Origin: Brevibacillus humidisoli
GTDB taxonomy: Bacteria > Bacillota > Bacilli > Brevibacillales > Brevibacillaceae
Assembly (NCBI RefSeq): GCF_020923435.1
Contig: NZ_CP087263.1
Span: forward strand, 2,747,970-2,811,969
Direction: 5' to 3'
DNA length: 64,000 nucleotides
The notes below the pieces were generated by a model, which was given only the letters and a program-made list of their open reading frames with translations, made no database searches and was not told the DNA's origin. The stretch's first letter is position 1. Each line of letters begins with the position of its first letter. Shown here piece after piece: positions 6,921 through 54,637 of the stretch. The position numbers and the translations under genes were made by a program.

Positions 6921-6964
6921 ACAAAAACAAAAAACCTCCCTTCCTTTGGAAAGGAGCAGGGAGG
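6921..6964 (-). terminator. Terminator of gerE
   Basis: Inverted repeat CCTCCC-TTCCTTT...AAAGGA-GGGAGG, followed on the minus strand by TTTTTTGTTTTTG. A classic intrinsic terminator directly after the gerE stop codon. Confidence 0.85.
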
Positions 6965-6979
6965 GTGGGTGGACACGGC

Positions 6980-7201: not shown

Positions 7202-7259
7202 TCGTGCCACCCCTCCTTGTGGGCTCTACAGGAACAAGGTTGAGGGATTACAGTCACCT

Positions 7260-7287
7260 TATCCTATGTTGCAGGGGTGGTGGTGGT
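7260..7287 (-). promoter_or_regulatory. SigK-type promoter of gerE
   Basis: On the minus strand CATAGGATA (7260-7268) fits the SigK -10 consensus CATAnnnTA, with an ACC element 16 bases upstream (7285-7287) fitting the -35. gerE is a known SigK-regulon gene, so sequence and expectation agree. Confidence 0.7.
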
Positions 7288-7367
7288 GCCGAAGTGACAA
7301 GGATTTTAGGCTCTTGCCTTACATCCTATTCATCGATCAGCCGATGCGTTCCACTCGCTCGAGCGCT

Positions 7368-9150: not shown

Positions 9151-9292
9151 GACCCCCTAGTTTGTCTCTTTTTGTATTTTGACTATTCATACACATTTCG
9201 CTATTCCAAAAGATACTACAATCAACAAAAGATTTGCCAGTCGTTAAAATTTATTTTATTTTTCTTTATTATCTTTGGCCTTTACAAATAGA

Positions 9293-9320
9293 TAAACCGT
9301 CAGGGAAAAGCCCTGACGGT
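9293..9320 (-). terminator. Terminator after the iron-siderophore binding protein gene
   Basis: A perfect 10-bp stem, ACCGTCAGGG / CCCTGACGGT, with a 5-base loop, followed on the minus strand by TTATCTATTTG. The U-tract is weak, but the position 30 bases after the stop codon fits. Confidence 0.7.
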
Positions 9321-9349
9321 CCTATTGTTTGTCCGAATTCAAACTCGGT

Positions 9350-10375
9350 TTATTCCGCTTCAAAATACGTTACAAGTTCATCGAGCAGCAGATTGGCCGC
9401 CAATACGCCTCCAGCAGTGTTCCAGATCACTTCGTCCACTTGATACACTTTGTTGGTTTTGGATACATTCAGGTTCTGCCACAGTGGATCTTTCATCCAT
9501 TCGTTTTTGTATTCAGCGGCAGCTTTTGTCTCGTCGTAATCAGACACCCAATAAAACAAGATATCGCCATCCATATCGCGGATGCGCTCCTTCGATATTA
9601 CCTCCATAAATTCATCTTTATCTTGGGAAGCGGGACGTGCAAAGCCGATTTGATCCAGCAGCACACCGGCGAACGTATCTTTCATGTACAAACGCACTTT
9701 GCCGGGCAGGAAACGAACCAACGAGACTTTGCTCTTTGTTTTGTCACCCATCCTGAGCTTCGCCTGTTCAACTTTTTGGTCAAACTCACGCAGGATGTTA
9801 TCGCCTTCCTCTTTTTTGTTAAGAGCTTCGGCGTAGAGACGAAAGTTCACTTTCCAATCACCGGCCAAATCTTCCGAGAAGACAGTTGGCGCCATGCTGG
9901 ACAGTTGGGAATAAACTTTCTCATGAAGCACCTTGTTGCCCAGAATCAAGTCGGGCTTCAAGCTGGCGATCAGCTCCATATTTGGCTGTGTTTCATCACC
10001 CAATACCTCTACGCCCTGCATTCGGTCTTTGATGTGATCGTGCCAGGGGTCGCCCAATCCTGATTGCACTGCTCCCACTGGTTTGACACCAAGTGCGAGC
10101 AAAGCTTCCGTTCCCTCACTGGTCAGGACGACAACCTTTTGAGGTGTTCCACTAAGTTTTGTCTCCCCCATCGCGTGTTTGACAGTTCTCTCTTCACCGG
10201 CAGGCGGCATACTCTCCGCTGTCAGTTTATCGTTTGACTCAGCAGGTGTGTGTTCGGTAGCAGAATGGTGCTGTACCGTTGATTCCGTTCCGCCGCAGCC
10301 TGTCAACAGCAGCAGTAACATAATCAAGCAAATCATCGTTGCTTGAACTCCTAAAAAGCGTTTCTTGTTCAACAT
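9350..10375 (-). CDS. Iron(III)-siderophore ABC transporter binding lipoprotein
   Basis: A 341-residue FhuD/FepB-type substrate-binding protein. It has a lipoprotein signal ending LLLLLTGC, a linker of about 60 polar residues, and a periplasmic-binding fold with KVVVLTSEGTEALLALGVKPVGA and SLKPDLILGNK. The ATG has GGGAGGAG in front and a Fur box lies upstream, so it is expected to be induced by iron starvation. No cognate permease or ATPase is in the window; stand-alone siderophore-binding proteins are common in Bacillales. The ligand cannot be told. Confidence 0.9.
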   Translation of the reverse strand: MLNKKRFLGVQATMICLIMLLLLLTGCGGTESTVQHHSATEHTPAESNDKLTAESMPPAGEERTVKHAMGETKLSGTPQKVVVLTSEGTEALLALGVKPVGAVQSGLGDPWHDHIKDRMQGVEVLGDETQPNMELIASLKPDLILGNKVLHEKVYSQLSSMAPTVFSEDLAGDWKVNFRLYAEALNKKEEGDNILREFDQKVEQAKLRMGDKTKSKVSLVRFLPGKVRLYMKDTFAGVLLDQIGFARPASQDKDEFMEVISKERIRDMDGDILFYWVSDYDETKAAAEYKNEWMKDPLWQNLNVSKTNKVYQVDEVIWNTAGGVLAANLLLDELVTYFEAE

Positions 10376-25324: not shown

Positions 25325-26042
25325 TCATTCCGCTTTACGGCCGCCCAGATACGCCTCTTTCACCCGTTCGTTGGCCAGCAGTTCCTGTCCTGTCCCGCTG
25401 TGTACGATCCGCCCTGCTTCCAGCACATAGCCATGATCAGCGATTTTTAGCGCCTGCTTCACGTTCTGCTCCACAATCAACACGGTCGTACCTTCCTGAT
25501 TGATCTGACGAATCGATTTGAAAATATCACTGACGACGATCGGCGCCAACCCCATCGACGGTTCGTCAAGCAGCAGCAGTTTGGGGCGTGACATCAAGGC
25601 CCGTGCAATCGCCAGCATCTGCTGCTGTCCGCCTGACATCGTCCCCCCCCAACTGGTTCAGACGCTCCTTGAGAATGGGGAACCAGGTCATCATCTTTTC
25701 CATATCATCTCGGATTCCTTTGAAATCCTTCCGCTGAAAAGCGCCCATCTCCAGGTTCTCCTGCACCGTCATTTGGCTGAGGATCGCCCGTCCCTCCGGC
25801 ACAAGGGCAAGCCCCGCCTGCACCAATCGATGCGGCTTCCAACCTTCCACCCGTTGACCGTTAAACGCGATCGTCCCGCTATCGGGAGTCAGCAGTCCGG
25901 CAATCGTCTTCATCGTCGTCGTTTTACCCGCTCCATTGGCCCCGATCAACGCAACGATCTTCCCCTGAGGCACATCCAGCGAAACATTGCGGATCGCCTT
26001 GATTTGTCCGTAGGAGGTGCTTATGTCGCGTATCTCTAGCAT
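25325..26042 (-). pseudogene. livF: Branched-chain amino acid ABC transporter ATPase LivF, frameshifted
   Basis: The N-terminal part has Walker A (GANGAGKTTTMK) and runs to KERLNQLGG; the ABC signature (MSGGQQQMLAIARAL), Walker B (LLLLDEPSMGLAP) and the rest lie in another frame. The break is in a run of eight G on the coding strand (25643-25650 as C8). Seven G would give LGGTMSGGQQQ and an intact protein of about 238 residues, the normal LivF length. So one base is in excess: a real inactivation, phase variation by slippage, or a sequencing error. Everything else looks functional. Confidence 0.88.
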
Positions 26043-34843: not shown

Positions 34844-34934
34844 CGGTTCTGTTTGGTTGTTTTGTTGCCCCTATGCCTCTTCCTTACTTTCTCGGCATCA
34901 AGAGAGCTACTCATTACCGACTCATTGTCTACAG

Positions 34935-35080
34935 TCTCTAACTGGACTCTCTAACTCAGATACTCTAACTAGTTACTCTAACTACATTCTCTAACTACAT
35001 TCTCTAACTACATTCTCTAACTACATTCTCTGACTACGTTCTCTTGCTAGCTCCCCAACTGCACACACTCTAACTACACT
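34935..35080. repeat. 13-bp tandem repeat array at the chitinase 3' end
   Basis: Consensus TTCTCTAACTACA in about nine clear copies, three nearly identical in the middle and degenerate at both ends. The right end reaches into the last codons and TAG stop of the chitinase gene, whose minus-strand sequence GTGTAGTTAGAG is one copy of the unit. It contains no coding frame. Confidence 0.85.
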
Positions 35081-39315: not shown

Positions 39316-40338
39316 TCAACTGGCGGTCTTCCCCTTTAGTTCTTCCAGCAGGCGGTGTTGGATCCGCTCTTTTTCTGCATGTTCAACCAGATAATACCAC
39401 ACGCGAAGACCGTTCTTCCAGATCCGCTGATCTTGCCCTTTCAGGGTATCGGTTAGGAGCAGGTTTTTTTGAGAATCGCGGTAGGAGATTAGGAGAGAAG
39501 CAATCTCCGCCTCAGACAAATCGGTCTTCACGTGACCGCCTAAAATGTCCATTAGCGAAAATACCTTGATGACCCCCTGCAATGACTCACCTTTTTTCAC
39601 CAATGCCTGCAGAATCTCCTGCTGTCGGGAGATTCGCTCAGCATCACTGTCTTCACGGCCGATGTCACTCTTCCGATAGCGGGCGTAGTCAAGGGCCTGC
39701 TTGCCGTTTAGCACCTGCAGCCCAGGCTCCAGGTCAATACGCGTTCCGTCAGTCGGATCTGTGTATTTCATCCGTTTTTTGATGTTCACCTGGATGCCGC
39801 CCAGCTCGTCCACAACCTGTCGGAACCCTTCAAAATCGACTGTGATATACCGATCAATCGGAACATCAAAGTACTGCTCCAGCGTTTCTTTCAACAAGGC
39901 AGGGCCACCGTACGCCATGGCATGATTTACCTTATCAAACCCTCTTCCGGGCAGTTCCATATAGCTGTCGCGCGGAATGGAGAGGAGATAAATCCGCTGT
40001 CGGACGGGATGAACCGCAGCCAGCATCATCGTATCGGAGCGGGCCCGCTCTCCCTCCCGGCTGTCCACACCGATCAGCAGCAGCGTAAAAGGCTTCAGCG
40101 GTCTCGGCTTGGGAAATAACGGAGTTCCCTGCTCCTCCGGTTGTTCCTGCTTCAGATCGGTGTCGCTCTCAGTGAGGGCAGACGGTTCTTTGGACAGCGA
40201 TTGATACCATTCCCTGGTCATCTTTTTGAACTGATAAGCCGTATAAAACGTATATCCTGCCGCAGAACAAACAATCGCAAGGATCAAGAGGCCGATGACG
40301 GGTTTGGCTGCCCGTCGGTTTATCAAGCGCTTCACCAA
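39316..40338 (-). CDS. LytR-CpsA-Psr family glycopolymer transferase
   Basis: A 340-residue membrane-anchored LCP protein with a short cytoplasmic tail, one membrane helix (about 13-33), a linker, and an LCP domain: LLIGVDSREGERARSDTMMLAA, LLSIPRDSYMELPG, KVNHAMAYGG and DYARYRKSD, with the conserved Arg and Asp that hold the prenyl-phosphate. The family attaches wall teichoic acids or secondary wall polymers to peptidoglycan. Start is TTG or the following GTG. It fits the surface polymer genes further right. Confidence 0.9.
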   Translation of the reverse strand: MVKRLINRRAAKPVIGLLILAIVCSAAGYTFYTAYQFKKMTREWYQSLSKEPSALTESDTDLKQEQPEEQGTPLFPKPRPLKPFTLLLIGVDSREGERARSDTMMLAAVHPVRQRIYLLSIPRDSYMELPGRGFDKVNHAMAYGGPALLKETLEQYFDVPIDRYITVDFEGFRQVVDELGGIQVNIKKRMKYTDPTDGTRIDLEPGLQVLNGKQALDYARYRKSDIGREDSDAERISRQQEILQALVKKGESLQGVIKVFSLMDILGGHVKTDLSEAEIASLLISYRDSQKNLLLTDTLKGQDQRIWKNGLRVWYYLVEHAEKERIQHRLLEELKGKTAS

Positions 40339-40369
40339 TCCCCTTGCCCCCTTTTCATGGCCTCAAAGA

Positions 40370-40405
40370 TGAAAACCCCATCACGCTGATCGCCTGAATG
40401 GGGTT
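40370..40405 (-). terminator. Terminator of the thiolase gene
   Basis: AACCCCAT / ATGGGGTT with a 16-base loop, followed by TTTTCATC on the minus strand, between the thiolase and LCP genes. Confidence 0.7.
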
Positions 40406-40450
40406 CTCTGTTAGTATGGCCTTGAGAGAGTCAGGATATACTTGCCTGTG

Positions 40451-41626
40451 TTACCGCTCCAACACCATGGACATGCCCATGCCGCCGCCCACACAGAGGG
40501 TGGCCAGGCCGCGCTTCGCACCGCTCCGCTTCATTTCGTTCAGCAGCGAAACGACGATGCGGCATCCTGTGCAGCCCACTGGATGCCCGAGCGAGATGCC
40601 GCTGCCGTTGAGATTGGTAATGTCCCGCGGCAACTCCAGCATTTTTTCCACGGCTAGGTATTGGGCGGCAAATGCCTCGTTTACTTCAATCCGCTCCATG
40701 TCATGCAGGGTCAGCCCTGCTTTGGCCAGCGCCTTCTGCGTAGCCGGTACCGGACCATACCCCATCAGATCGGGTTCTACCCCAGCCCAGGCATAGGAGA
40801 TGATCCGTGCCATTGGCTCCAGTCCCATCTCCCGCGCACGGCTTTCCTTCATCAGGAGAACGGCTGCGGCACCATCGTTTATTCCCGAAGCATTTCCAGC
40901 GGTTACGGTCCCATCTTCCCGAAAAGAGGGTTTGAGCGCGGCCAGCCCCTCCAGAGAAATATCGCGCCGAGGGTGCTCATCGGTATCGACCTGGATGGTC
41001 TCTTTTCGTTTCTGGACCGGAACCGGGATGATCTCATCCCGAAACAAACCGCTGTCAATCGCCTGGATGGCGTTTTTATGGCTGCGATAGGCGATCTCAT
41101 CCTGCTCTTCCCGGCTGACCCCGTATTTGTCGGCCAGTCGTTCCGCCGTCTCCCCCATCAGGATCTGGTGATGGGGATCAGTTAACAGCTCCCACAGCGC
41201 ATCGGTCATCTCACCATGCATGATCCGTTTGCCCCAGCGCGTCTGCTTCAAGACATAGGGAGCATTGCTCATGCTCTCTACCCCTCCGGCGATTACGACC
41301 TCGCTGTCTCCCAGCACAATCTGCGACAGCCCGCTGACGATCGCCTGCATCCCCGATGAGCACTGCCGCTGAACCGTGTAGGCGGTCACCTCTTTCCCCA
41401 GTCCGGCATCGATCGCCGCTGTACGGGCGATGTTGGCTTCATCGGTTCGCTGGATGCAGTTGCCAAGAATCACCTCGTCCACGTGAGCAGGGTCGATCCC
41501 CGAACGATCCAGAATTCCTCGGATGACCACTTCCGCCAGTTTGCGAGCGCTTACATCTTTCAGACTGCCGCCAAACGAACCAATCGGTGTTCGCCCGGCT
41601 GCGACAATGACGACTGGATCCATCAT
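40451..41626 (-). CDS. Acetyl-CoA C-acetyltransferase (thiolase)
   Basis: A 391-residue thiolase. The acyl-accepting cysteine is in VQRQCSSGMQA (about residue 88), the catalytic His in GSGISLGHPVGCTG, and the second Cys in LATLCVGGGMGM. Such enzymes either cleave 3-ketoacyl-CoA or condense acetyl-CoA; sequence does not decide between these. It lies 14 bases after a PrmA-like gene. Adjacent ATGs at 41626 and 41623 are both possible. Confidence 0.93.
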   Translation of the reverse strand: MMDPVVIVAAGRTPIGSFGGSLKDVSARKLAEVVIRGILDRSGIDPAHVDEVILGNCIQRTDEANIARTAAIDAGLGKEVTAYTVQRQCSSGMQAIVSGLSQIVLGDSEVVIAGGVESMSNAPYVLKQTRWGKRIMHGEMTDALWELLTDPHHQILMGETAERLADKYGVSREEQDEIAYRSHKNAIQAIDSGLFRDEIIPVPVQKRKETIQVDTDEHPRRDISLEGLAALKPSFREDGTVTAGNASGINDGAAAVLLMKESRAREMGLEPMARIISYAWAGVEPDLMGYGPVPATQKALAKAGLTLHDMERIEVNEAFAAQYLAVEKMLELPRDITNLNGSGISLGHPVGCTGCRIVVSLLNEMKRSGAKRGLATLCVGGGMGMSMVLER

Positions 41627-41640
41627 GTACCCTCTTCCCT

Positions 41641-42627
41641 TCATGCTTTTTTTTCATTATCGCACAGGCGGGTTACAAGCGTCACCCACTCTCCGCTGAT
41701 TCGCTCAGCGATCGGTGAGAATCCTGCTTCCCGGTATGCCTGCTCCACCATCTCTCGGCTCCACTCCACGATCCCCGAGAGAATCACCGTCCCTCCCCAC
41801 GCCAGGGAGCGGAGCACGACCGGCAGCATTGCCACGTCCTCTTCGGCACCAATATTGATCAGGATCAGGTCTGCATCACGGGGCAGCTGTTCTGCTGCCG
41901 CCGGTTCCAGCGGATCTCCGATTACAACCTGTACAGCTTGTTTGGGCAAGTGGTTCAGCGAGCAGTTGTGATCGATCTGATCGGCAGCAGCCGGATTGAT
42001 GTCGATGGCATAGACCGGCCAGGAAGCGCCGTTCTTGGCACAGAAAATAGACAAGATGCCTGAACCGGAGCCGATGTCCAACACACGCTTGTCAGTGAGC
42101 GGAAGCTCCTGCAGCAGGTAGAGGATATCCTGCGTCGTTCCGTGATAACCTGTGCCAAAAGCAGCCCCCGGATCGATCCACAGTACACGTGAAAGATCCT
42201 CAACAACTCCCTCCCCCGACCAGGAAGGAGCGATATGCCACTCTCCGACCTGCACCGGCTCGAACTGCTGCTGCCAGCTCTCGTGTTCTTCCCGTACCTT
42301 CTCTACCTTCAGCAGCGTGACCTGCCCTGCCCACTTCTCCAAAACATGCTGCAACTGCTCTACCCGCTCTTCTTGCCCATCTGTTAACGGTTCGAACAGA
42401 TAGGCCGTCAGGGGTACGTCATCTCTTTCCCGGTAATCATAACCGTTATCAGTCCGGATCACGTCGATGCCTGGTTCCATCCAGCCAAGTGTGTAAGGCG
42501 ATGAGGCCAGTTCTTCCGCAAATGACTCTTCCAACTTCGGATCCAACTGCAGTGTGTATTTCAACCAATACGCCGACAATTCACTCCACACTCCTTCTCC
42601 CTGTATACTCCTACTCACTGTATTCAT
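41641..42627 (-). CDS. Ribosomal protein L11 methyltransferase-like protein
   Basis: A 328-residue class I SAM methyltransferase with PrmA architecture: an N-terminal ferredoxin-like substrate domain (about 1-110), a linker with WIDPGAAFGTGYHGTTQDIL (compare the PrmA motif DPGxAFGTGxHxTT), then VLDIGSGSGILSIF and a catalytic-domain end. The N-terminal part is long and acidic compared with canonical PrmA, and the usual copy lies near dnaJ elsewhere, so this may be a paralogue with another protein substrate. The ATG is set 17 codons inside the frame. Confidence 0.75.
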   Translation of the reverse strand: MNTVSRSIQGEGVWSELSAYWLKYTLQLDPKLEESFAEELASSPYTLGWMEPGIDVIRTDNGYDYRERDDVPLTAYLFEPLTDGQEERVEQLQHVLEKWAGQVTLLKVEKVREEHESWQQQFEPVQVGEWHIAPSWSGEGVVEDLSRVLWIDPGAAFGTGYHGTTQDILYLLQELPLTDKRVLDIGSGSGILSIFCAKNGASWPVYAIDINPAAADQIDHNCSLNHLPKQAVQVVIGDPLEPAAAEQLPRDADLILINIGAEEDVAMLPVVLRSLAWGGTVILSGIVEWSREMVEQAYREAGFSPIAERISGEWVTLVTRLCDNEKKA

Positions 42628-42696
42628 CCTGCAACTGGCTCCCCGCTTGATTACGTGGTAACATACAGAAGGAACCATTACGGGATGGAGGTACAG

Positions 42697-42816
42697 ATGA
42701 TGTTTGATGAATTCTTCTACCGCCGCCGCAAAAACAAAGGGTTGTTCGTTCTCAGCATTTTGTTTATCGCAGCGAGTGCTCTGCTGCTGATCGGCGGAAT
42801 CTACTACCTGAGCTAG
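42697..42816 (+). CDS. 39-residue single-span membrane peptide
   Basis: A small gene with GGAGG 6 bases before ATGATG. The product has a basic cytoplasmic start (EFFYRRRKNKG) and one hydrophobic helix of about 21 residues, then YYLS. It lies divergently from the methyltransferase gene and just before the csaB promoter. The basic-then-hydrophobic pattern and good ribosome site argue for a real gene. Function unknown. Confidence 0.65.
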   Translation: MMFDEFFYRRRKNKGLFVLSILFIAASALLLIGGIYYLS

Positions 42817-42817
42817 A

Positions 42818-42847
42818 TTGCTTTACTCCTCCCCTGCACTCTATTAT
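42818..42847 (+). promoter_or_regulatory. SigA-like promoter of csaB
   Basis: TTGCTT (42818-42823), 18-base spacer, TATTAT (42842-42847), about 110 bases before csaB. Confidence 0.6.
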
Positions 42848-42888
42848 ACTTGAGCATGTCACCACTATTGGGGAAAAAACGTGCTACC

Positions 42889-42924
42889 TGCAACGATCCA
42901 GGGCCGTTGCAACCGCCCTTTTTG
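42889..42924 (+). terminator. Terminator-like element in the csaB leader
   Basis: TGCAACG / CGTTGCA stem with a 9-base loop, then ACCGCCCTTTTTG. It lies between the predicted csaB promoter and gene, so it would act as a leader attenuator or end the small upstream gene. Confidence 0.5.
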
Positions 42925-42955
42925 TGCATGTTTTCTACAGAAAGAAGGTTCTCTC

Positions 42956-44059
42956 ATGCCGCGAATTCTCATCTCCGGATATTACGGCTTTAACAATGCC
43001 GGGGACGATGTCGTACTGTACGGGATCATTACCGGGCTCAGACGGGAACAACCTCATATCTCCCTATCCGTGCTGTCCAACCAGCCTGAGCGCACGACGT
43101 CGTTGTTCGGAATTCCGGCTCACAATCGTTGGCGTCTTGCCACCATCCTGCGGGAATTGAAACGGTGCGACCTGCTGGTGATGGGCGGCGGCACACTCAT
43201 GCAGGATGTAACTAGTCCTCGCAGTGTACTTTACTACCTCGGCATCGTCAGTATTGCCAAGCTGCTGGGAAAACCGGTCGTGTTTTACGCACAGGGATTC
43301 GGCCCGATTCTGCATCGGACAAGCCGGTTTCTCATCAAGCAGGTGGTGAATCGGGTCGACGTGATCACCGTTCGGGATTTTGAATCAGGTGAAGATTTTA
43401 AAGCTTGCGGCGTGACCAAGGCACCGGTTTTTGTAACCGCTGATCCCGCGCTCACCATCCACCCGGCAGACATCGAGGAAGAACAGGGAAAACAACTGCT
43501 CAAAAACCTGTACAGCGACCACAGCAAACCGCTTGTCGCCTTCTCTGTCCGGGATTGGAAGCAAGAGGAGGCATTTAAGCAGATCATCGCCCAGGCCGCT
43601 GATTTTTACATAGAGCAGGGCTGGAATGTTCTGTTTGTCCCGATGCATTATCCGAGCGACCTGACCCCTTCTCGGCAGATCATGTCATTGATGCGTCAGC
43701 CGGGGGCCAAGCTATTGGAACAACCGGTTTCGTTTCACGAGATCATGAGTGTGCTCAAGCAGTGCGACTACGTTGTCGGGATGCGGCTCCATTCGCTGAT
43801 CCTGGCCTGCGTGCTGAACATCCCGTTTACCGGGATCTCGTATGATCCCAAGATCGACCGCTTCGTCGAACGAGCGGGGATGCCGGTTGCGGGACATATC
43901 CGAGATTTAACATCAGAGACGCTGCTTCCGCTGCTTGCCGATCGACTTGTCAATCTGGAGCGGGAACGCGGCATCGTAGCCCATCACTCCCGCCTGCTAG
44001 CCGAGGAGGCGTTGAAAAGCAGCAAACTGGTGCTTCAAGCACTGGCCCAATCTCGGTAA
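42956..44059 (+). CDS. csaB: Polysaccharide pyruvyl transferase CsaB
   Basis: A 367-residue CsaB-type enzyme with GYYGFNNAGDDVVLYG at the N-terminus, LLVMGGGTLMQDVTS, and VVGMRLHSLILA near the C-terminus, all hallmarks of the pyruvyl transferase family. CsaB ketal-pyruvylates the secondary cell wall polymer so that SLH-domain S-layer proteins can bind it. The ATG follows AGAAAGAAGG. A methyltransferase gene follows after 23 bases. Confidence 0.93.
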   Translation: MPRILISGYYGFNNAGDDVVLYGIITGLRREQPHISLSVLSNQPERTTSLFGIPAHNRWRLATILRELKRCDLLVMGGGTLMQDVTSPRSVLYYLGIVSIAKLLGKPVVFYAQGFGPILHRTSRFLIKQVVNRVDVITVRDFESGEDFKACGVTKAPVFVTADPALTIHPADIEEEQGKQLLKNLYSDHSKPLVAFSVRDWKQEEAFKQIIAQAADFYIEQGWNVLFVPMHYPSDLTPSRQIMSLMRQPGAKLLEQPVSFHEIMSVLKQCDYVVGMRLHSLILACVLNIPFTGISYDPKIDRFVERAGMPVAGHIRDLTSETLLPLLADRLVNLERERGIVAHHSRLLAEEALKSSKLVLQALAQSR

Positions 44060-44082
44060 TCCGTCACGGATCGAAGGAGGAT

Positions 44083-44937
44083 ATGACCTTGTCGTTGGCT
44101 TCGTCTCTATTGCTTGCAATAAACAAGTTATTCCCACTGCCTGTCCATCCTTTTAATCTGGCCAATGACGGCAAGATGACCTATACCGAATGGCAGTTTC
44201 AAAAAGGAGATCAGACGATCCAGTTTTTCCTGCCTTATCATTCACAACAGCAGATGTTTGCAGGAAAAACAGTGCTCGACATCGGCTGCGGCGGCGGCGG
44301 GAAGACATGCTATTACGCAACCTTTGGGCCGCAGGAGATCGTCGGGATCGATATCGTACCTCATTATGCAGAAGAAGGCAATGCCTTTGCCCGGGAGAAA
44401 GGACTTGCTGATGTGGCCCGCTTCCTCACGGCCGACGCTTCGGCGATGCCGTTCGACGACAACAGCTTTGACACGATCATCATGAATGACGCGATGGAAC
44501 ACGTCGACAATCCGGAAGCAACACTGGAGGAGTGCTTCCGCGTACTGAAGCCAGGCGGCCATCTCTACATCAACTTTCCACCCTACTTCCATCCCTACGG
44601 GGCACACCTGTCCGACGCGATCGGCATTCCTTGGGTGCATTCGCTATTCTCAGAAAAAACGTTGATCGAATCTTACAAACGTTTGGTGGAACCGCTGCCC
44701 GATGGACCGGAGCGAATCTCGTTCCGCATCAGCCGCAAGGATCAGGGTGAGGAGTATTTCTCCTATATCAACAAAATGACGATCGCCCGCTTTCGTCGCA
44801 TCCAGCAAGGGGTCGCTCATCCTGCCGTCTATGAGCGCGAGGTTCCGCTTCGCCCTCAGTTGGCCGCTCTGGCCAAGCTCCCCGGACTGCGCGAGTATTT
44901 CGTCAAGATGGTTGTCTGTGTCTATCAAAAAACATAA
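44083..44937 (+). CDS. Class I SAM-dependent methyltransferase
   Basis: A 284-residue methyltransferase: TVLDIGCGGGGKTCYYA (SAM loop), IVGIDIVPHYAEEG, AMPFDDNSFDTIIMND and RVLKPGGHLYINFPPYF. The C-terminal third is helical and may bind a lipid or sugar carrier. The ATG lies only 2 bases behind GGAGG; a TTG two codons later has better spacing. It probably modifies a surface glycan, judging from csaB next to it; the substrate is unknown. Confidence 0.8.
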   Translation: MTLSLASSLLLAINKLFPLPVHPFNLANDGKMTYTEWQFQKGDQTIQFFLPYHSQQQMFAGKTVLDIGCGGGGKTCYYATFGPQEIVGIDIVPHYAEEGNAFAREKGLADVARFLTADASAMPFDDNSFDTIIMNDAMEHVDNPEATLEECFRVLKPGGHLYINFPPYFHPYGAHLSDAIGIPWVHSLFSEKTLIESYKRLVEPLPDGPERISFRISRKDQGEEYFSYINKMTIARFRRIQQGVAHPAVYEREVPLRPQLAALAKLPGLREYFVKMVVCVYQKT

Positions 44938-44970
44938 GAAAACGCTCGACCATCTCAGGTGGAACGAAGA

Positions 44971-45004
44971 ACAGCTGCGAGGCTTGGACTCGCAGCTGTT
45001 TCCT
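44971..45004 (+). terminator. Terminator of csaB-methyltransferase unit
   Basis: Perfect 11-bp stem ACAGCTGCGAG / CTCGCAGCTGT with a 7-base loop, followed by TTCCTTCTGTT. It lies 34 bases after the methyltransferase stop. Confidence 0.85.
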
Positions 45005-45052
45005 TCTGTTATCCAAAGCAATCGGATGACCGAAGAGCGTGCCTTGCGTCGT

Positions 45053-45253
45053 TCATTGCGATCCAAACGGCGGTCGGGTTGGACTAGGCAGCGTAATACC
45101 AGCTAAAAACAGCATGCCGCACCCCCAGGCAACCCCCATCCACAGCAGGAACACCTGCGCCTCGCGCTTTCTCCCCTGCTTGGTCCAATAGCGATACTGA
45201 TGGAGTGCAGCGAGGAGAATCGTACAGGTAAACAGCAGCAAGCTTCCCAGCAT
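45053..45253 (-). CDS. Small membrane protein at the end of the ger operon
   Basis: A 66-residue protein with two hydrophobic segments (LGSLLLFTCTILLAAL and VFLLWMGVAWGCGMLFLAG) joined by a basic loop. Its ATG directly follows the gerC stop codon (TAG-ATG), so it is coupled to the ger operon. Small accessory membrane genes occur in some ger operons. I do not recognise the family. Confidence 0.6.
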   Translation of the reverse strand: MLGSLLLFTCTILLAALHQYRYWTKQGRKREAQVFLLWMGVAWGCGMLFLAGITLPSPTRPPFGSQ

Positions 45254-46211
45254 CTACTTTTTCACCTCGCCCTCCGGCAGCGACATGGGCGGACCCGCTA
45301 CTCCAATTGATGAAATGCGGGCATCTACTGTCCACTGAATCTCCTGACGGGTAAACATGTCGGGCCAATCCGCTTCGATTTTTCGCCAATACGCGGGATG
45401 GGAGCGGTATATCATGGCCCCCATGGAAGCACTATCCGTCTTGCAGGTTTTCTGTAATTTTTTAAGCAACCTCTCGTATTCCTGTTTGATGGTTTTGGCA
45501 AATGCATCCGTCACATCTGAAATAATACGGGGATTGCTTAAATCCAGGTTTGTGGTGTTTTCCATCACCCTGCCTTTTGCCTTAACAGTGAACCGGAAGA
45601 CTGGTTTGTCGTTTTGAATGCTTACGTGTTCCTTGGGACGCAGTTCTTCCAATTCGATCGACAACTCCCCTTTCACATCAGGGAGATGAACTTTGATCAC
45701 ACCAAACGGCTCTTTCCCAGCAAACTGTTTAACATGATCGCGGAATTGCCTTCCGCGTACCCGACCAGCTTGTCACCTCGAAACAGGGCGATCGCGTTTA
45801 GTGCAAAGTGGCTGGGATTACTTCCTTTCATCGTAAAGGCAGCAGTGATCGGCTGCGAACCTATACTTGATGACGACAGCAAGACGTCACGCAATAGTGT
45901 GGGTGGGGCCATCTCACGCCGCAGCATCTCCAGCAGTGCATCGGTCGGGGCAGATTTTTCCCCCTTGCAGCCACGATCATCGCCGGGTTCTGCTGTTGTG
46001 CCCCACTCATTCCAGCTTGGACTCCTCCCGCCTGAGTAGGAATTGCGATTCTGACTTTCCCCTGATACGTTCCAGGTTCTTCTCCTGTGTCAAACGTGCT
46101 AACCATCACAAAAGCGACCTCGTTGATCTCCCGACGATCCCAGCATCCGGCAAGGGGGAGGCAGAGCAGGGAAATACACAGACTGATGAGACATTTATTC
46201 CGACCGCTCAC
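45254..46211 (-). pseudogene. Spore germination receptor lipoprotein GerC, degenerate
   Basis: Remains of a Ger(x)C lipoprotein. The GTG start (GGAGGGG upstream) gives a lipoprotein signal LLCLPLAGCWDRREINEV and the start of the N-terminal domain to NPAMIVAARG. Sequence then jumps to LRRE-MAPPTLLRDVLL, so roughly 70-100 family residues are missing. Two frameshifts follow, near 45955-45964 (G5A5) and 45715-45719 (G3), each cured by one extra base. The C-terminal part (KVHLPDVKGEL to EGEVKK) is well preserved. It overlaps the original gerA 3' end by 17 bases. Non-functional. Confidence 0.85.
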
Positions 46212-47703
46212 GGCTATCCCCTCCACGAGGTGCGGCTTGTTTCTTTCGTCTATCATGAACCAGGCGATACAAGTCATATTCACCCGGATCGGTCGGCCTG
46301 GTGCGGCCAGGCTGGGATAGGGTCTGCTTCTTCATCCGCCACAATGGCATCCGTACCAGCATATCCTTCCAGCCGGATAGACGTTCGGGAGCAATCGGAG
46401 CAATCTAAGGCACACCAGCCGAGTAAACCCCTGTCAGGTTGATGGCCAACGCGATGATGCCGAACATAATCCCAAACAACCCCAATGTTCCCGCCAGCAA
46501 GATCAATGGAAAGCGAAGGATTCGCAGGGCAAAACCGACATTGTAGCGAGGAATGGTAAATGATGCAATCCCGGTTAGGGAAACGACGATTACCATGGGT
46601 GCCGAGACGATACCTGCCTCGACCGCTGCCTGCCCGATGACCAACGCTCCCACAATGCTGACCGCCTCCCCAACCGGTGGCGGCAGACGCAACCCGGCTT
46701 CCCGCAGGGCTTCAAAGGTAAACTCCATCATCAACGCCTCCACCAGTGCCGGAAAAGGGGTTGCTTCGCGTGAGGCAGCAACGGAAAACAGCAGGCTTGT
46801 CGGCAGCATGTCTTGGTGAAATGTGGTGATGGCAACATAAAACGACGGCAGCAACAACGCAATAAAGATAAAGATAGCGCGAACGGTTCGTACAAAAGTG
46901 GCAAACAAGTAGCTGCTGTAGTAATCTTCACTCGCCTGAAAACCGCTCCAGAATTGAAAAGGCATAATCAATGCCTGAGGTGAATTGTCCACTAAGATGC
47001 CGATGCGTCCTTCTGAGAGAGCTCCTGCCACTACATCAGGTCGTTCGGTAGATTGAACTGTCGGCAACAAATTGTAGCGATGATCGCGAATCATCTCCTC
47101 AATGTAGTTGCTATCGAGGGCAACGTCCTGGTCAATGGCTGCGATTCTTCGCGAGATTTCTTCAACCAGCCCTGGCTCTGTGATCCCGTCCAGATAGAGC
47201 AGCCTTACTTCTGTACGAGTCAACCGACCGATAAACCATTGCTTGACCCGCAATCGTTCACTGGGCAATCGATATCGAATCAGCGCCATATTGGTCTCTA
47301 GCCGCTCTGTAAACCCCTCGCGAGGACCGCGAATCACCGCTTCCGTCTGCGGCTCTTCGACGCTGCGCTCCGGTATGGAGGTGAGATGCGCCAGCAGTAC
47401 TCGTTCATCTCCCTCTCGACCAATCACGACGTTCCCTGTCAAAAGTGCTTGAACCACCTCGTCCATTTTAGCCGTATCCCGCAGGTTGGCCGCATGTACG
47501 GAATGATCGTCCGGTTCGATGCGGAGCGGCCCGATCACCTCTTCCTGCAGGCGGTGCAGGTCCACTAAACCAGCGATATAGATGACCAGATAGGAGCCAA
47601 AAAATCGAAGGACGAGATCAGGATTGTCGATCAGTCGCAACCTGACATCTTGCATAAACCGATCCAAGCTTCGCAAATCTACATGCTCTGATCTCTGTTG
47701 CAT
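46195..47703 (-). pseudogene. Spore germination receptor subunit GerA, nonsense mutation
   Basis: A GerA/GerKA-family membrane subunit. The frame stops at TAG (46405-46407) after INLTGVYSAGVP, where the family has the conserved GVPY(L/I)SP; the tyrosine codon has become amber. Beyond the stop the same frame continues 69 codons with a normal family end (IAPIAPERLSGWKDMLVRMP), to a stop that overlaps the gerC start by 17 bases, as in intact ger operons. Intact length would be about 502 residues. The truncated 432-residue product keeps the soluble domain and the membrane helices, so partial function is conceivable. Confidence 0.88.
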
Positions 47704-47704
47704 A

Positions 47705-48830
47705 CTACCCTTCCTTTTCGTTCGGTTTGTTTGAACCGAGCACCCGTTTCACCCCAAGTCCCAGGAAAAGCAACAGCGGAATGACGAGAAACAATGGAAC
47801 CCACATGACCCATGGAACCCACATGACCCATGGAACCCACTTGAGACCCGTAAAAATATGACTGGAAAGATTAGGTGCCATATAGGTGGCAAGCAGACAG
47901 ACGAGCAGACAGACCGGCAGAATTACAGCCCGGTAGTTGCTTAGCTTCCATTGTGTGGCAATCCCGGCACAAGCTGCATAAGTGAAGATGAGAACTTTAA
48001 AAATGCCGACGATCATGTAGTTGATCACAATCAACGGGTCTACATTGTCCACAAACTGGCTGACAGCTGTCATCTGAAACGTAGACAGCAATGGATAAAT
48101 CGCTCGCGAAAAGATTTCCGCTCCTAATGTTGCCACGCCTAGCAAATCCAATACCGTGATGATCAGGGTAAACAGTCCACTCGCCCATAGTGCGGCCCGT
48201 CGAAATCCCCGGGGTTGAACAGTCAGATGCCAAAACATCGCAAAGGCGGTTGTCTCACCATACGGAACGGTTACCCCAAGAGGAAATATCGTTGCAGCGA
48301 TCCTGCTCCAATCAGCTGCTACCGGATACAACCAGCGGAATTCCATTACATCCGATATGACAAAAAGATCACCTGCAAAACGAGCAGCAAGAGGACCAAC
48401 GGAATGAACATCTCCCCTAGCCGGGCCATCCGCTCAATGCCAGCAAAACAGGCATAGCCTACAAGTAGTAAAAAAACAAACATGGAAAAGCCTGTCGGTG
48501 TCTTAGGCAGCAGAAAAGAGTCGATCAATTCGCCAAAATCCCGCAATACCCGCCCAGCGACGTAAAGCATGATCACGATGTAAACCAGGGAGAGAGCTCC
48601 TCCCGCCATTTTCCAAATACATGTGTCACTAAGCCACCCCAATTCGCTGTGGGATGCCATTCGTAGAGCTTGCTGTACAGGTAGAGCAGCAGCATACCCA
48701 GCACACCACTCAGCCCTGCAGCAATCCAAGCGTCCTGCTTCGCCACTGCCGCAAAACCAAAGACCACATTACTGCCGATCTGGAAAAGCAGGATCAAGCT
48801 CCAGGTTTGATAAACGGAGAGGAGTCTCAT
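47705..48830 (-). pseudogene. Spore germination receptor permease GerB, frameshifted
   Basis: A GerB/GerKB APC-superfamily permease in three frames. Part 1 (MRLLSVYQTWSLILLFQ to THVFGK), part 2 (MAGGALSLVYIVIMLYVAG to LQVIF) and part 3 (VISDVMEFRWLYPVAADW to NKPNEKEG). The breaks are in an A4 run (about 48607-48613) and a T5 run (48362-48366 as A5); each is repaired by one extra base. The joined protein would have about 375 residues, the family length. A tandem duplication near the C-terminus (WVPWVMWVPWVMWVP) is an added oddity. The ATG has GGGGGG 7 bases upstream. Confidence 0.88.
47795..47840. repeat. 18-bp tandem repeat inside gerB
   Basis: TGGAACCCACATGACCCA occurs twice exactly plus 10 bases of a third copy. 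It encodes repeated WVPWVM units at the end of the last GerB membrane helices; a repeat of 18 bases keeps frame. Confidence 0.85.
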
Positions 48831-48881
48831 ACCTGTACCCCCCAGTTTTTCTTAGTATTACCTCCATTGACATCCCTATGT

Positions 48882-48914
48882 GAAAAAAAGCGCTCCCGTT
48901 CTGCGAACAGGAGC
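48882..48914 (-). terminator. Terminator of the SpoVB-like flippase gene
   Basis: GCTCC-C-GTTC / GAAC-A-GGAGC hairpin with a 3-base loop, followed on the minus strand by TTTTTTTCAC. It separates the flippase gene from gerB. Confidence 0.85.
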
Positions 48915-48941
48915 TTGTCCATCGGTGGTTGCATCGAAACG

Positions 48942-50582
48942 TTACCGACGCAATCCAATTGTCCGTTTTTCGATTGTATCCAGCCACTGCTGCAGTCGAG
49001 CACCGCCCGGTATCCACTCTAGCTCTCTCCGCTCGATCAGCGGTATGGCCAACAACAATCCCAGGTAGATAGATGCGCCGATGGCGATACCGGCAGTCGT
49101 CTCTAGAGCTCCTAACAGCCGAGGGCTGAGTGGAGCAGATGCCAGCAGAAAGGAAACCGTCTCCGTCGTACCCCAAGCCAGCAGCAACATGACATTGGCC
49201 GTAACCAACGGCAGCACCATGTCTAACCGCCATTTCAATTCCACCGTCACCAGTCGGCTGAGCACGCGGTGATTGAGGTAGCAGACAACCGCAGTGGAGA
49301 GCAGCCAGGACAGCGCTAATCCGTCTATTCCCATCCAGGAGGTGAACACAATCGTGGCAACTGCTTTTATCGCGACTCCCCAGGCGAGGTGAATAGCCGG
49401 CTGTTTCTCTCTCCCTAATCCTTGCAGAATGCCGTTCGTTGCCAAAAGCAGTGACAAGGGAACAGCGCTTACCCCCAGGATCGCCATCGCTCGCGTCCCC
49501 TCCGCATCTCCGTACAGGGCTAGATTGGCTCCCTCTGCCACAGCCGTAATGCCCAGACCAGCGGGGAGACCAATCAACCAGGCGAATCGATAAGAAAGCC
49601 GGATCAACATCGTGACCCGCTCTTCATCACCTTGCCGTCGCGCTTCCGCAATCGCCGGCACGATTGACAGCGCGATCGAGGAGCCAAACAAACTGGCCAA
49701 CTGCAGCAGCGGTCCCCCTCTGCTGTAAATGCCGAACCAGCTGTCTGCCGTCCAGCCATCCACGTGCCAGATATAGCGGAAGATATTAATCGCAAAGAAG
49801 GAGTCGACCAGGCTAAAGATCGGGATAACCAGCGCACTGACACAGATCGGCCAGGAGATGCGCCACATCGTCAGATAAAACTGGCGATCTCCCCACCATT
49901 GCAGGCTGCGCCATTCATATTTCACCCGTTGGCCTTTTTGCTTGCGGCTTTGCAGCCAGAGAAATAACAGCAGCACAGCGAGGCTCAGGACGGTGCTCAG
50001 CATCGTTCCGATGTTTACCCCGGTGATCACCGTGTCGGTGTCTTTGCCCAGCGATACCAGATAGAGAGAAAAACATAAAATGAAAGCCACACGCAGGGTC
50101 TGCTCCACCACTTGAGAGACGCCGACGTAAAGCATCTTTTGATGACCGTAGAAAAAACCGCGCAGCACCGCAATCAACGGAACAAACAAGAGCGATGACG
50201 AAATCGCTCGGATCGGCTGCGTCAAGTGAGGATTGCCCATCAGGATCGCGATCAGCGGCGAACTGAGATAGAGCAGTACAAACAGCAGCAGTCCGATCAC
50301 GCCCATCATCAGCATGCTGCGGGCCAGGATCTGGTTTACCAATTCAGGACGACCTTCGGCCAGCGCTTCGGCAATCATGCGCGACAGCGCTACGGGCACA
50401 CCGGCCGTAGCCAGGATGAGAAAGGTTAGATAAAGCGGATATACCTCTTGATACAGACCGAGCCCGTTATTGCCGACAATCTCCTGCAGTGGAATGCGGT
50501 AGAACATGCCGATCACTTTGGACAAGACACCGGCCAAAGCCAGAATCAGCGCACCGCTGAGAAAGTGACTTTTTGCAAACAT
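48942..50582 (-). CDS. Oligosaccharide flippase, SpoVB/MATE-like (MOP superfamily)
   Basis: A 546-residue polytopic protein with about 14 membrane helices. The N-terminus SGALILALAGVLSKVIGMFYRIPLQEIVG and the VALSRMIAEALAEGRPELV segment match SpoVB/YtgP-type MOP flippases. Such proteins move lipid-linked oligosaccharides or peptidoglycan precursors; SpoVB acts in cortex formation. The ATG is 28 codons inside the frame, with AAAGGAGC upstream. Being beside murJ and polymer genes, a surface-glycan flippase is equally likely. Confidence 0.85.
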   Translation of the reverse strand: MFAKSHFLSGALILALAGVLSKVIGMFYRIPLQEIVGNNGLGLYQEVYPLYLTFLILATAGVPVALSRMIAEALAEGRPELVNQILARSMLMMGVIGLLLFVLLYLSSPLIAILMGNPHLTQPIRAISSSLLFVPLIAVLRGFFYGHQKMLYVGVSQVVEQTLRVAFILCFSLYLVSLGKDTDTVITGVNIGTMLSTVLSLAVLLLFLWLQSRKQKGQRVKYEWRSLQWWGDRQFYLTMWRISWPICVSALVIPIFSLVDSFFAINIFRYIWHVDGWTADSWFGIYSRGGPLLQLASLFGSSIALSIVPAIAEARRQGDEERVTMLIRLSYRFAWLIGLPAGLGITAVAEGANLALYGDAEGTRAMAILGVSAVPLSLLLATNGILQGLGREKQPAIHLAWGVAIKAVATIVFTSWMGIDGLALSWLLSTAVVCYLNHRVLSRLVTVELKWRLDMVLPLVTANVMLLLAWGTTETVSFLLASAPLSPRLLGALETTAGIAIGASIYLGLLLAIPLIERRELEWIPGGARLQQWLDTIEKRTIGLRR

Positions 50583-50728
50583 GTATGTGCTCCTTTGGAA
50601 TAACCGGTATGAACTGCAGATAATCCTAATCATACTACCGTAAACGATGCCGTTAGACAAGGGCAAGAAGTCATATCACGCACGTCCGAATCAATCGACA
50701 AACAGGCATTCCCAATAGAGAACACCTG

Positions 50729-52261
50729 TTACTGGCCTCGCCTCGCCGCTTTCTTCCAGACTTTGCCCAAGATTTCCGCCAGCAGTGGTTCTTTCACCAG
50801 ATACAGTATACATGCGTAGACGAGGGCACCAGAGCCCGTATACAGGAAAAACCGAAGCCACGCATACGGCAGAGGTACAAGATATTTCAGCAGCATCACT
50901 GCCGCCGTCATCACCAAGACAGCCATCGTCGTCTTGCCGGCTGTCTTGAACAGATCGGATGATAGAAACGGGCCGACCCGACGTCTTAACGCCACGGCGA
51001 GCAGGGCAATGTTGAGAAACGCCGACAGGGACATGGCCAAGGCAATCCCGCCGTGGTCCAGCCAGGGAACCAACAGCAAGCCTAGCGAGATGAACAATGC
51101 TACGTTGACTGCGGCGAATATCACCGGAGTGCGCGTGTTTTCCAGAGCATAAAAAGCGCGGGTAAACAAGTCGCGGGCAGCAATCGCGAACAGTCCGATC
51201 CCGTAGAAGATCAGCGCCCAGTAGGTAAGCGCAGTATCCTCCGGGCCAAAGTTGTTATTCTGATACAGCATCTCAATCAGCGGTTTGCCCAACAGAAAGA
51301 AGCCAACGCTGATCGGTACCAGCAGGACCAGCAGGTAGCGCAGCCCCAAGGTGAGCACGCGGTTCATCTCCTGCAGATTTTGCTGCTTTACATATTCTGA
51401 GAGCAGTGGGAACAAGGGAACGGTAGCTGCCCCGACCACCATCATCGGCAGCTGCACGATCGTCATCGCATAGGCGAGAGCAGAAATTTTCGCTTCCCCT
51501 AATCCGGAACCGATCATTTTTTCAAAGAAGACCGTGATTTGTCCTAGGATGAGCGCGAATAGGATCGGAATAAAGCGTTCTCCCATGCTGTGCAAGAGCG
51601 GATCGCCGCGCCAGCGGAAGTTGAGGCGAAACGGCATTCCCATGGAAAGAACGGAAGGAAGAAGCGTCGCCGCCGCCAAAGCAAAACCGATCGTAGTCGC
51701 GATCGCCAATCCCGTTGATCCTAGCATCGGGACAAGCAGGTAAAAGCAGAGAATCGTCACCGCGGCATTGACCACTGTACTGAGCGACGAGGCAAAGAAG
51801 CGATCACGGGCATTAAGCAAACTGGACCAGAGGCTGAGCAGCGCGATAAACAGAACCGACGGCCACATCCAGCCCAACTGTGTCGCAACCAACTGCTGCC
51901 CTGCTGCGGAGAAACCCGGTACCAGCAGGTTGGTGACCGGACCGTTCAACAGCCATCCAAACAGGCTGACGCCGCCTCCGATGAGAATCGTCAACGTGAA
52001 CAGCTTGCTGTACAGATCATGGCCCCGCTGTTCCTCTCCAGCAGTCATCAATCCCTTCATCGTCGGGATGTAGAGAGAGTTCACCACCGTCGGAAAGATA
52101 ATCCAGAGCGTCATCGGTATGACGACGGCAGCGTAGTAGGCGCTCGCCTCGATACTCGTCCCATAGGTGGAAGATACAAACAGATTACGGACAAACCCGA
52201 GGACGCGACCAAGCAGGGAGAGAACGAACACCATCGCAACAATTTGTTGGAATCGGCTCAT
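50729..52261 (-). CDS. murJ: Lipid II flippase MurJ-type (MviN family)
   Basis: A 510-residue MOP-superfamily membrane protein with 14 helices. It has LLGRVLGFVRNLFVSSTYGTS at the N-terminus, VVNSLYIPTMKGLMTAG, and the central-cavity segments with conserved arginines and LNARDRFFASS. MurJ flips lipid II. Bacillales often carry several MviN proteins, and in this polymer operon it may flip a polysaccharide repeat unit instead. The ATG is in the 4-base overlap with the upstream glycosyltransferase gene. Confidence 0.85.
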   Translation of the reverse strand: MSRFQQIVAMVFVLSLLGRVLGFVRNLFVSSTYGTSIEASAYYAAVVIPMTLWIIFPTVVNSLYIPTMKGLMTAGEEQRGHDLYSKLFTLTILIGGGVSLFGWLLNGPVTNLLVPGFSAAGQQLVATQLGWMWPSVLFIALLSLWSSLLNARDRFFASSLSTVVNAAVTILCFYLLVPMLGSTGLAIATTIGFALAAATLLPSVLSMGMPFRLNFRWRGDPLLHSMGERFIPILFALILGQITVFFEKMIGSGLGEAKISALAYAMTIVQLPMMVVGAATVPLFPLLSEYVKQQNLQEMNRVLTLGLRYLLVLLVPISVGFFLLGKPLIEMLYQNNNFGPEDTALTYWALIFYGIGLFAIAARDLFTRAFYALENTRTPVIFAAVNVALFISLGLLLVPWLDHGGIALAMSLSAFLNIALLAVALRRRVGPFLSSDLFKTAGKTTMAVLVMTAAVMLLKYLVPLPYAWLRFFLYTGSGALVYACILYLVKEPLLAEILGKVWKKAARRGQ

Positions 52262-53313
52262 CGCGCTCTCTCCGCAAGGCCATATAAGGCGATAATCTGC
52301 TCGGCATAGTCAGGAACCGGGTCTCCCTGCTCGTGGAGAGCACGTTCGCCGTCGAGCACGGAAACGGTCTTGGCCAGAAAATCGTCAAGGTCGCGATCGG
52401 CAAACAATACCGTCTGCGGCGGTCGAATGTCAGCATCGCTGGCCACCACCGGTACGCCCGAATGCAGGGCCTCGTACACGGAAATGCCGTAGCTGTCACT
52501 GTTTGTCGGCCGCAAAAAGACCGCTGAGCGCTTTAGCAGCGTTTGATACTCCGGCGGTGCATGCAAAAAACAAAACACTTCTGTCAGTCCGCGTTCCGAT
52601 ACTTGCTGCTGCAGCTTTTCGTAGTATACTGGATCGGCGACATGGGTCACGCAGTAAATGATCCGCACATCGCGACGCATCCCGGCGAGCCGCTCTGCCA
52701 GATCGACGATCAGATCGATTCCGTACAAGTCGACACCCTTGTGGTAGGTGCCGACTGCACCATTGGCCAACAGCAGCTTGGTATCCGAACTGGCCAGAAA
52801 CGACGCTACCTCAGGGGAGATGGGAATCTCATCCTGCTGTCCATGAATGAACGGTGGGATGAAGACGATCTTCTCAGGATCAACTCCACAGGCCGCCAGC
52901 CGGTCCACAAACTCTGGATTGACCACAATAAAGCGGTATGCCAGTCGGCTGGTCACCTTCACGATCAACCGCTTTATCCAGGAGAGCGGCTGCTCTTCGC
53001 CGCGCATGTTGTGGACGGTGAAGATCACCCGTTTGCCGCGCAGTGCCAATAAGGATAGCAGCAGTCTCACCTGCCAGCGCAGAAAATGGACGTGAATCAC
53101 ATCTTCCCGGCAGCCAAACAGATAGCGGAGCGCCCATGTTTCAATCTTGCCGGTATACTTCACGTCCCGATCTTTTTCACCCGTTGTGTTGTCATAGATG
53201 GTAACGGGGATACCCCGCGCGTCCAAAGCCCGACAGAGGCGTTGGATGTGAACGGATATCCCCCCTACCGGCGGCGGGTAGACACCCACCTGAGCCAGTT
53301 TACGCTGTTTCAT
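52258..53313 (-). CDS. Glycosyltransferase family 4
   Basis: A 351-residue GT-B enzyme. The N-terminal QVGVYPPPVGGISVHIQRLC is the acceptor-domain glycine loop, and the C-terminal domain has the nucleotide-sugar motif SDSYGISVYEALHSGVPVVASD with the catalytic glutamate pair region. The ATG is set at the AGGAG-preceded position. It overlaps the next gene by 4 bases and the upstream O-antigen-ligase-like gene by 14 bases. Sugar specificity cannot be told. Confidence 0.88.
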   Translation of the reverse strand: MKQRKLAQVGVYPPPVGGISVHIQRLCRALDARGIPVTIYDNTTGEKDRDVKYTGKIETWALRYLFGCREDVIHVHFLRWQVRLLLSLLALRGKRVIFTVHNMRGEEQPLSWIKRLIVKVTSRLAYRFIVVNPEFVDRLAACGVDPEKIVFIPPFIHGQQDEIPISPEVASFLASSDTKLLLANGAVGTYHKGVDLYGIDLIVDLAERLAGMRRDVRIIYCVTHVADPVYYEKLQQQVSERGLTEVFCFLHAPPEYQTLLKRSAVFLRPTNSDSYGISVYEALHSGVPVVASDADIRPPQTVLFADRDLDDFLAKTVSVLDGERALHEQGDPVPDYAEQIIALYGLAERAR

Positions 53314-54637
53314 TCTCCCGACGCTCCTGTCGCAGAATGATCTCAATCGCGCCAATTGCGGCAGCGATCAGCCAAAACGCCATCATCACCCGGTAATCGT
53401 GGAACACATCCTCGGTCATGCCGGCGGCTGCCAGCCCGATCAAACTGGCAAACAATCCGATCCCCCAGATGGAAAGGCGTTTTTGCAGCCGGTTGGCCGC
53501 CACCGCAAAGCTAGTCTTCACTAATTGATAAAACAGGAATAGGAGTGAGCCGATTCCCAAAATCCCGCCGGTAACGAACGACTGAATCCAGATATTATGA
53601 AAGTGGAACACGTTTACCTGCGGCATCTGATAGTCGACATAGACTCGGTTAAAGGTTGTCGTGTCCATGCCGATCCCTGTGACCCAATAGTCGCGGATAA
53701 TGGCTAGAGCAGACAACCATGCCTGCAGTCGCCACTGGCCGGAGGTATCCTCAAACGGATCGGCGATCGATGCGATCCGCTGCTTGATCACATCCGGGAT
53801 CAGATCAAACAAAACGGCAACGACCAAGAGAAGCATACCGGTCAGGATCAGTTTCCGGTCGATCTTGAGCAGGATCAGCACGAACGCAATAGCCGCTGCC
53901 AGCCAGGCCCCTCGCGAAAAGGTGAGCAGCAGCGCCAGTGCTGTCAATCCAAACAGCACAGCGACCAGACATTTCTGCTTAAAGTCACGCACATAGTAGA
54001 TCAGCACAAACGCCAATGGCATGACCAACAGCAAAAACTGAGAAAAAATGTTAGGGTTGCCGAATGTGGCATACACCCGTTTATCCAACAGCGGGTTGGT
54101 TTCCCGGTCCACCCACTTGCCTGGCATCGAGTCCAACAGGAAATACTGCGCCAATCCGTACACAGAGATCAATGCACCGGAGATGACAAAACAAAGCAGG
54201 AAGCGATACAGCACCTGCTTCGATCCGATCATCAGCATCATCACCACCAGCAAGATCAGACTGGGGATGTAGTACAGCACGTATTCCCCGAGACTTTCCC
54301 GCAGATTCACTGACGTAACCGCAGTGATTCCGACCGCTAGGATGAAGAAGGCGGAGGCGAAAAACACTTTGCTGGTCAGTACCTGCTTCAACCGCTGCTT
54401 ATCCACTCCATCCAGCAGGAGCAAAAAAATCAGCACCAGCAGGAAGAACATCAGCGGACGGTAGGTCATGAAGGGAAACGAAAGGGCGAACAGGTACAAG
54501 GCATATTCCTTTTTATATATCCCTGCGAGATAAAAGGCAGCGTACAGGGTAAGCTCCATCGTAAACTCCACTTTCCCCTGGACAACCCCAAAGGCAATCA
54601 ACAGCAGGGCGGGTAAAACGATTTTCCAGTTATACAT
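53300..54637 (-). CDS. O-antigen ligase/polymerase-like membrane protein
   Basis: A 445-residue protein with 11-12 membrane helices and a large loop near residues 290-350. The loop contains the pattern RLQAWLSALAIIRDYWVTGIGMDT, typical of the Wzy/WaaL O-antigen ligase family, whose conserved arginine and histidine act in glycan transfer. It probably polymerises or ligates the surface polysaccharide made by the operon. Confidence 0.85.
   Translation of the reverse strand: MYNWKIVLPALLLIAFGVVQGKVEFTMELTLYAAFYLAGIYKKEYALYLFALSFPFMTYRPLMFFLLVLIFLLLLDGVDKQRLKQVLTSKVFFASAFFILAVGITAVTSVNLRESLGEYVLYYIPSLILLVVMMLMIGSKQVLYRFLLCFVISGALISVYGLAQYFLLDSMPGKWVDRETNPLLDKRVYATFGNPNIFSQFLLLVMPLAFVLIYYVRDFKQKCLVAVLFGLTALALLLTFSRGAWLAAAIAFVLILLKIDRKLILTGMLLLVVAVLFDLIPDVIKQRIASIADPFEDTSGQWRLQAWLSALAIIRDYWVTGIGMDTTTFNRVYVDYQMPQVNVFHFHNIWIQSFVTGGILGIGSLLFLFYQLVKTSFAVAANRLQKRLSIWGIGLFASLIGLAAAGMTEDVFHDYRVMMAFWLIAAAIGAIEIILRQERRENETA

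Follow-up and report, generated by a model that had tools for sequence, protein, structure and literature searches.

Has Brevibacillus humidisoli genuinely lost one of its germinant receptors and, if so, by what route? The question is raised by a GerA-type germinant-receptor operon with the gene order B-A-C-D, located on the minus strand at 45053–48830 of the window, by which we mean the whole 64,000-nucleotide stretch of the B. humidisoli chromosome that was analysed. The operon matches the Pfam families GerA, Spore_permease and Spore_GerAC. It is bordered by a polysaccharide-type flippase gene on one side (48942–50666, minus strand) and by a convergent methyltransferase gene on the other (44083–44937, plus strand). 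A related genome, G009, has an intact syntenic orthologue in which the Pfam A, B and C subunit families are all recognised. We therefore mapped the lesions by frame-aware DNA alignment against the proteins of the intact G009 operon.

Lesions in three receptor genes and an open fourth gene

The gerB pseudogene (47705–48830, minus strand) corresponds to a spore germination permease, the B subunit. It matches PF03845 in three pieces, each over the cut-off, which lie in different frames (48609–48830, 48361–48612 and 47705–48355). Over the alignment it is 54% identical to the intact GerB of G009, and the same alignment places frame breaks near 48608 and near 48360, in agreement with the two frameshifts reported in the initial annotation. 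That annotation had not included an in-frame 18-bp tandem duplication of 2.8 copies (47794–47844, minus strand), which is absent from all 11 other GerB proteins aligned. Two further apparent breaks, at 47760 in gerB and at 46325 in gerA, were not counted because they sit in divergent C-terminal tails of the G009 alignments.

The gerA pseudogene (A subunit; 46195–47703, minus strand) is open for 432 codons, followed by an in-frame TAG (46405–46407, minus strand) and 69 more open codons (46404–46198), about 27 of which still align with G009. The position of the stop corresponds to Tyr 444 of G009, and a tyrosine is found there in 43/43 other GerA-family proteins aligned, just as expected from the earlier description of a nonsense codon at a conserved tyrosine. 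The gene matches Pfam GerA (PF03323) with 559 bits and the one internal TAG. Among 102 well-conserved GerA columns, it departs from the consensus at five, the stop included, compared with four in G009; the 43 control proteins have a median of one departure, and eight of them reach at least five. This 43-homologue comparison replaced a test of invariant columns, for which 30 homologues gave only four columns.

In gerC, which corresponds to the lipoprotein C subunit (45254–46208 with an approximate 5′ end, minus strand), some 70–74 residues are missing, with a change of frame at that place, near 45950, and a second frame break near 45708. The two frameshifts and the missing segment noted previously are thus both present. 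The missing segment falls in the N-terminal domain and is retained in 13/13 other GerC proteins aligned; the match to PF05504 scores 91.7 bits and covers profile positions 29–167.

The last gene of the operon, as in G009, is an open frame of 66 amino acids (45053–45253, minus strand) that was absent from the initial annotation. We refer to it as gerD, a putative receptor D subunit, on the basis of its position, size and apparent topology. The protein is 44% identical to its counterpart at the matching place in G009 and, judged by eye, apparently has two membrane helices; it matched no Pfam family at E ≤ 0.001. According to PMC4661057, D subunits are small proteins that have two transmembrane helices and whose genes lie within or next to the operon, a description that the predicted gerD product appears to fit.

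The receptor genes are preceded by two further features. Between the flippase gene and gerB there is a terminator-like hairpin (48892–48914, minus strand), and upstream of gerB there is a SigG-like promoter (48853–48881, minus strand) consisting of ACATA, a 17-nt spacer and AATACTA, whose −10 box deviates from the consensus at one position. G009 has a similar motif at the matching place (ACATG, 17 nt, CATACTA). The scan relied on what we take to be the SigG consensus, a site this good occurred in 5% of shuffles of the stretch, and 6 of the 12 ger upstream regions scanned had one, so that the putative promoter and its G009 counterpart are suggestive only. No structured RNA was found at the gathering threshold within 40000–54000.

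The coordinates, kinds and numbers of lesions listed in the initial annotation were right. Its description of the whole operon as being in decay stands for gerB, gerA and gerC, all of which are broken; it does not extend to gerD, which is open, or to the promoter-like site, which remains. A functional germinant receptor would have open A, B and C genes, and here all three are damaged; a working receptor is therefore not expected. Each of the three subunits is described as essential (PMC4661057), as is the case for GerA of B. subtilis (PMC8038838), and the B subunit has been proposed as the nutrient sensor (PMC8617281). Damage to A, to C and to the proposed sensor B would leave nothing from which a working receptor could assemble.

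Assembly error, recoding and the timing of decay

Might intact genes merely look broken through errors of assembly or sequencing? Such errors may be present nearby. In a livF-like gene for a branched-chain amino acid ABC ATPase (window 25325–26042, minus strand), the reading frame shifts within eight consecutive G. An amidohydrolase gene (window 3713–4845, minus strand) falls into two frames; its break, near 4180, is located in a short G/A run. Since both genes break in runs, the assembly of the window contains some indel errors or other pseudogenes. Both halves of the livF-like gene are >90% identical to the gene of the genus-mate G002, and its break is due either to faulty assembly or to a recent or phase-variable change. 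Within the operon itself, short homopolymers (four A, five T) adjoin the gerB breaks, and others (five G, five A) adjoin the edge of the gerC deletion.

On the other hand, the TAG in gerA, the loss of some 70 codons from gerC and the in-frame 18-bp duplication in gerB are not homopolymer errors; for the first two, this argument had already been made in the initial annotation, and we agree with it. The genome is a single contig with 99.97% completeness, and the background of broken genes is low. A survey of the surrounding 400 kb covered 109 genes that have an orthologue in G002: 8 were flagged as broken, only two or three of these look like clean frame breaks, and two of the latter are the livF-like and amidohydrolase genes. 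The reverse count in G002 gave 3/157. These counts required identity of at least 70% and coverage of at least 75%, starting from 274 and 310 frames of at least 150 amino acids, and the ger operon is outside them because G002 does not have it. A first, less strict count (33/131 here and 10/172 in G002) was discarded, as many of its entries looked like shadow frames, read from the wrong strand, or like frames with over-long starts; a gene at about 2981–3716, beside the amidohydrolase gene, was flagged as broken in that count and not in the strict one.

Assuming independence, the chance of three adjacent genes being broken is about 0.0004 at the upper background of 8/109 and about 0.00002 at 3/109. 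Five inactivating lesions of three kinds in three adjacent genes are far above this background, which makes an erroneous assembly of intact genes highly improbable. A scan of a collection of genome contigs returned only four loci, distant relatives at 39–48% identity. The three kinds of lesions, the low background of frame breaks and the intact syntenic orthologue together give good support to the earlier claim that the operon is really degenerating.

We next asked how long the operon may have been decaying. Compared with G009, pN is 0.25 for gerA, 0.28 for gerB, 0.35 for gerC and 0.41 for gerD, with pS of 0.74–0.82, whereas both values are lower in three flank genes (pN 0.14–0.19, pS 0.68–0.69); as silent sites are saturated, these values provide relative timing only. 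Because signs of constraint are still visible between the lesions, the operon appears to have been under constraint for most of the time since the split from G009, and its inactivation would be recent relative to that split.

Relative-rate counts, given as changes on the B. humidisoli branch to changes on the G009 branch, were obtained with two outgroups, G373 and G148. They are 48:37 and 51:35, respectively, for gerA, 33:53 and 35:32 for the summed pieces of gerB, and 41:26 and 33:34 for the summed pieces of gerC. There is no consistent excess, and accelerated protein change was accordingly dropped as proof of a long decay. The gerC excess obtained with G373 lies in the first two pieces (14:3 and 12:5), and perhaps it was gerC that became relaxed first.

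The constraint between the lesions could also be taken to mean that programmed frameshifts and stop readthrough keep the receptor working. However, such recoding would need at least four separate events plus tolerance of the large gerC deletion, while the frames are simply open in G009 and in the other homologues compared, and six other operons of the same genome need no recoding. We consider recoding hardly conceivable. By far the best account of the locus is that a vertically inherited GerA-type operon of the B-A-C-D order has recently lost its function.

History of the site in relatives

If the operon was inherited, traces of it might be expected at the same site in relatives, which were sampled at one genome per species. 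The flanking flippase is present in 33 of 39 family genomes at E ≤ 1e-180. In 23 of these 33 genomes, the flippase and methyltransferase matches are only 37–192 bp apart, although one of them (G018) shows only fragments of the methyltransferase match. The B-A-C-D operon occupies the site in two genomes, intact in G009 and broken in B. humidisoli, and a different ger operon is found there in one, G004, with the order A, C, small ORF, B (locus L073, 6001–10086). Five genomes have a gap of 0.8–2.8 kb without a match to any G009 Ger protein at E ≤ 0.01, and in the remaining two no methyltransferase was detected in the sequence retrieved. In both genus-mates, G001 and G002, the site is empty.

With G009 GerA as a query, only the query itself and the B. 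humidisoli copy were detected among the 39 family genomes at E ≤ 1e-150, and at E ≤ 1e-145 there were 10 genomes, G009 and B. humidisoli included, among 398 genomes of the class. In a tree of three flank proteins from 12 genomes, G009 is placed beside this genus (support 0.90) and G000 is grouped with G002 (0.88); other parts of the tree are weak, such as the placement of G004 (0.46). Read together with the pattern of presence, this tree suggests one old operon that has been lost at least twice in the genus, with a third loss under way. The ancestor of G009 and this genus would have carried the operon, which would then have been lost separately in the two genus-mates and would now be disappearing from B. 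humidisoli. Selection on it was presumably relaxed, in a genome where six further receptors still have A, B and C open.

The patchy presence of the operon, with the flanks abutting in 23/33 relatives, could also stem from separate acquisitions at a site able to take up ger operons, followed by decay after arrival. That G004 carries a different ger operon between the same flippase and methyltransferase genes agrees with such a history. Yet the B. humidisoli operon shares with that of G009 its gene order, orientation, site and fourth gene, and its divergence from G009 is only somewhat above that of the flanks (DNA identity of 67% for gerA and 64% for gerB, compared with 70–72%). The flank genes are in turn nearer to those of the genus-mates (77–82%) than to those of G009. 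Independent acquisition therefore seems rather unlikely to us. A recent transfer from the G009 lineage is not favored either, as flank identity shows no imported patch.

With inheritance and repeated loss as the preferred history, one chromosomal site displays three stages of receptor loss: intact in G009, decaying in B. humidisoli and gone in G001 and G002. Such a staged series opens two questions to study: the order of failure among the subunits, and any effect of a leftover gerD on other receptors.

Other receptors of the genome and comparison with known systems

The initial annotation had named other ger operons of the genome as a point to check. There are ten GerA-family matches in the genome, including that of the window, and six operons have open A, B and C genes (L044, L046, L047, L049, L050 and L075). 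The last of these (2728–9389) comprises a single gerA together with two genes each of the gerC and gerB type, all of them open. The change in triggering nutrients proposed in the initial annotation may be buffered by these six operons. At another locus, L048, a GerA relative lies beside genes resembling spoVAC and spoVAD, and from this resemblance we take the relative to be probably spoVAF.

Damage is also seen at other receptor loci. At L045, gerA and gerB are open and gerC is split into two overlapping frames (5756–6887; genome 4708755–4709886). At L051, part of a gerA N-terminal domain survives as a short remnant that includes a stop (3039–3353; genome 2966038–2966352); no gerB or gerC matches were found near it. 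In the genus-mate G002, a gerA gene (L117, 4574–6145) has an in-frame TAG within an otherwise long frame, as does gerA of the window; in contrast to the latter, it belongs to a non-orthologous receptor at another place, and its stop is mid-protein. Receptor loss thus extends beyond the operon of the window. The broken operon is a pseudogenised operon of a known type, a real and ordinary loss of one redundant member of the receptor family, caught part-way. As such, it reflects ordinary turnover in a multi-copy, fast-changing gene family, and it is useful because both the intact and the empty states of its site are known.

Could the fourth gene have outlived its receptor by acquiring a role with the others? 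No second clear copy of gerD was found in the genome, where only two weak matches (E about 0.25) were detected. In B. megaterium, swapping D proteins between receptors had outcomes that ranged from tolerance through weak harm to strong inhibition (PMC4661057), and an effect of an orphan gerD on other receptors is therefore possible. That the frame has stayed open because an orphan D subunit now tunes germination through the remaining receptors is nevertheless a conjecture that we rate as quite improbable.

Like GerK of B. subtilis and GerU of B. megaterium, the operon combines A, B and C family genes with a small adjacent gene, whose product apparently has two membrane helices. It differs from them in that A, B and C are broken and in that the D assignment is based on position, size and apparent topology. 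Disrupted ger genes have been described before: a clostridium is reported to carry, next to a ger cluster, a gerA-like pseudogene that is disrupted (PMC4161481), and B. megaterium an apparently non-functional GerK3 operon as well as a D gene adjacent to a truncated B gene (PMC4661057). Unlike in those cases, the B. humidisoli operon has three of its genes broken, and both intact and empty forms of the site are found in relatives. The B-A-C-D operon of B. humidisoli did not appear in open-access titles or abstracts among the matches listed, and the portions available of PMC5083711, PMC13068155, PMC4896439 and PMC3485630 held nothing decisive. Elsewhere in the window, a 13-bp unit is tandemly repeated 8.8 times (34929–35044).
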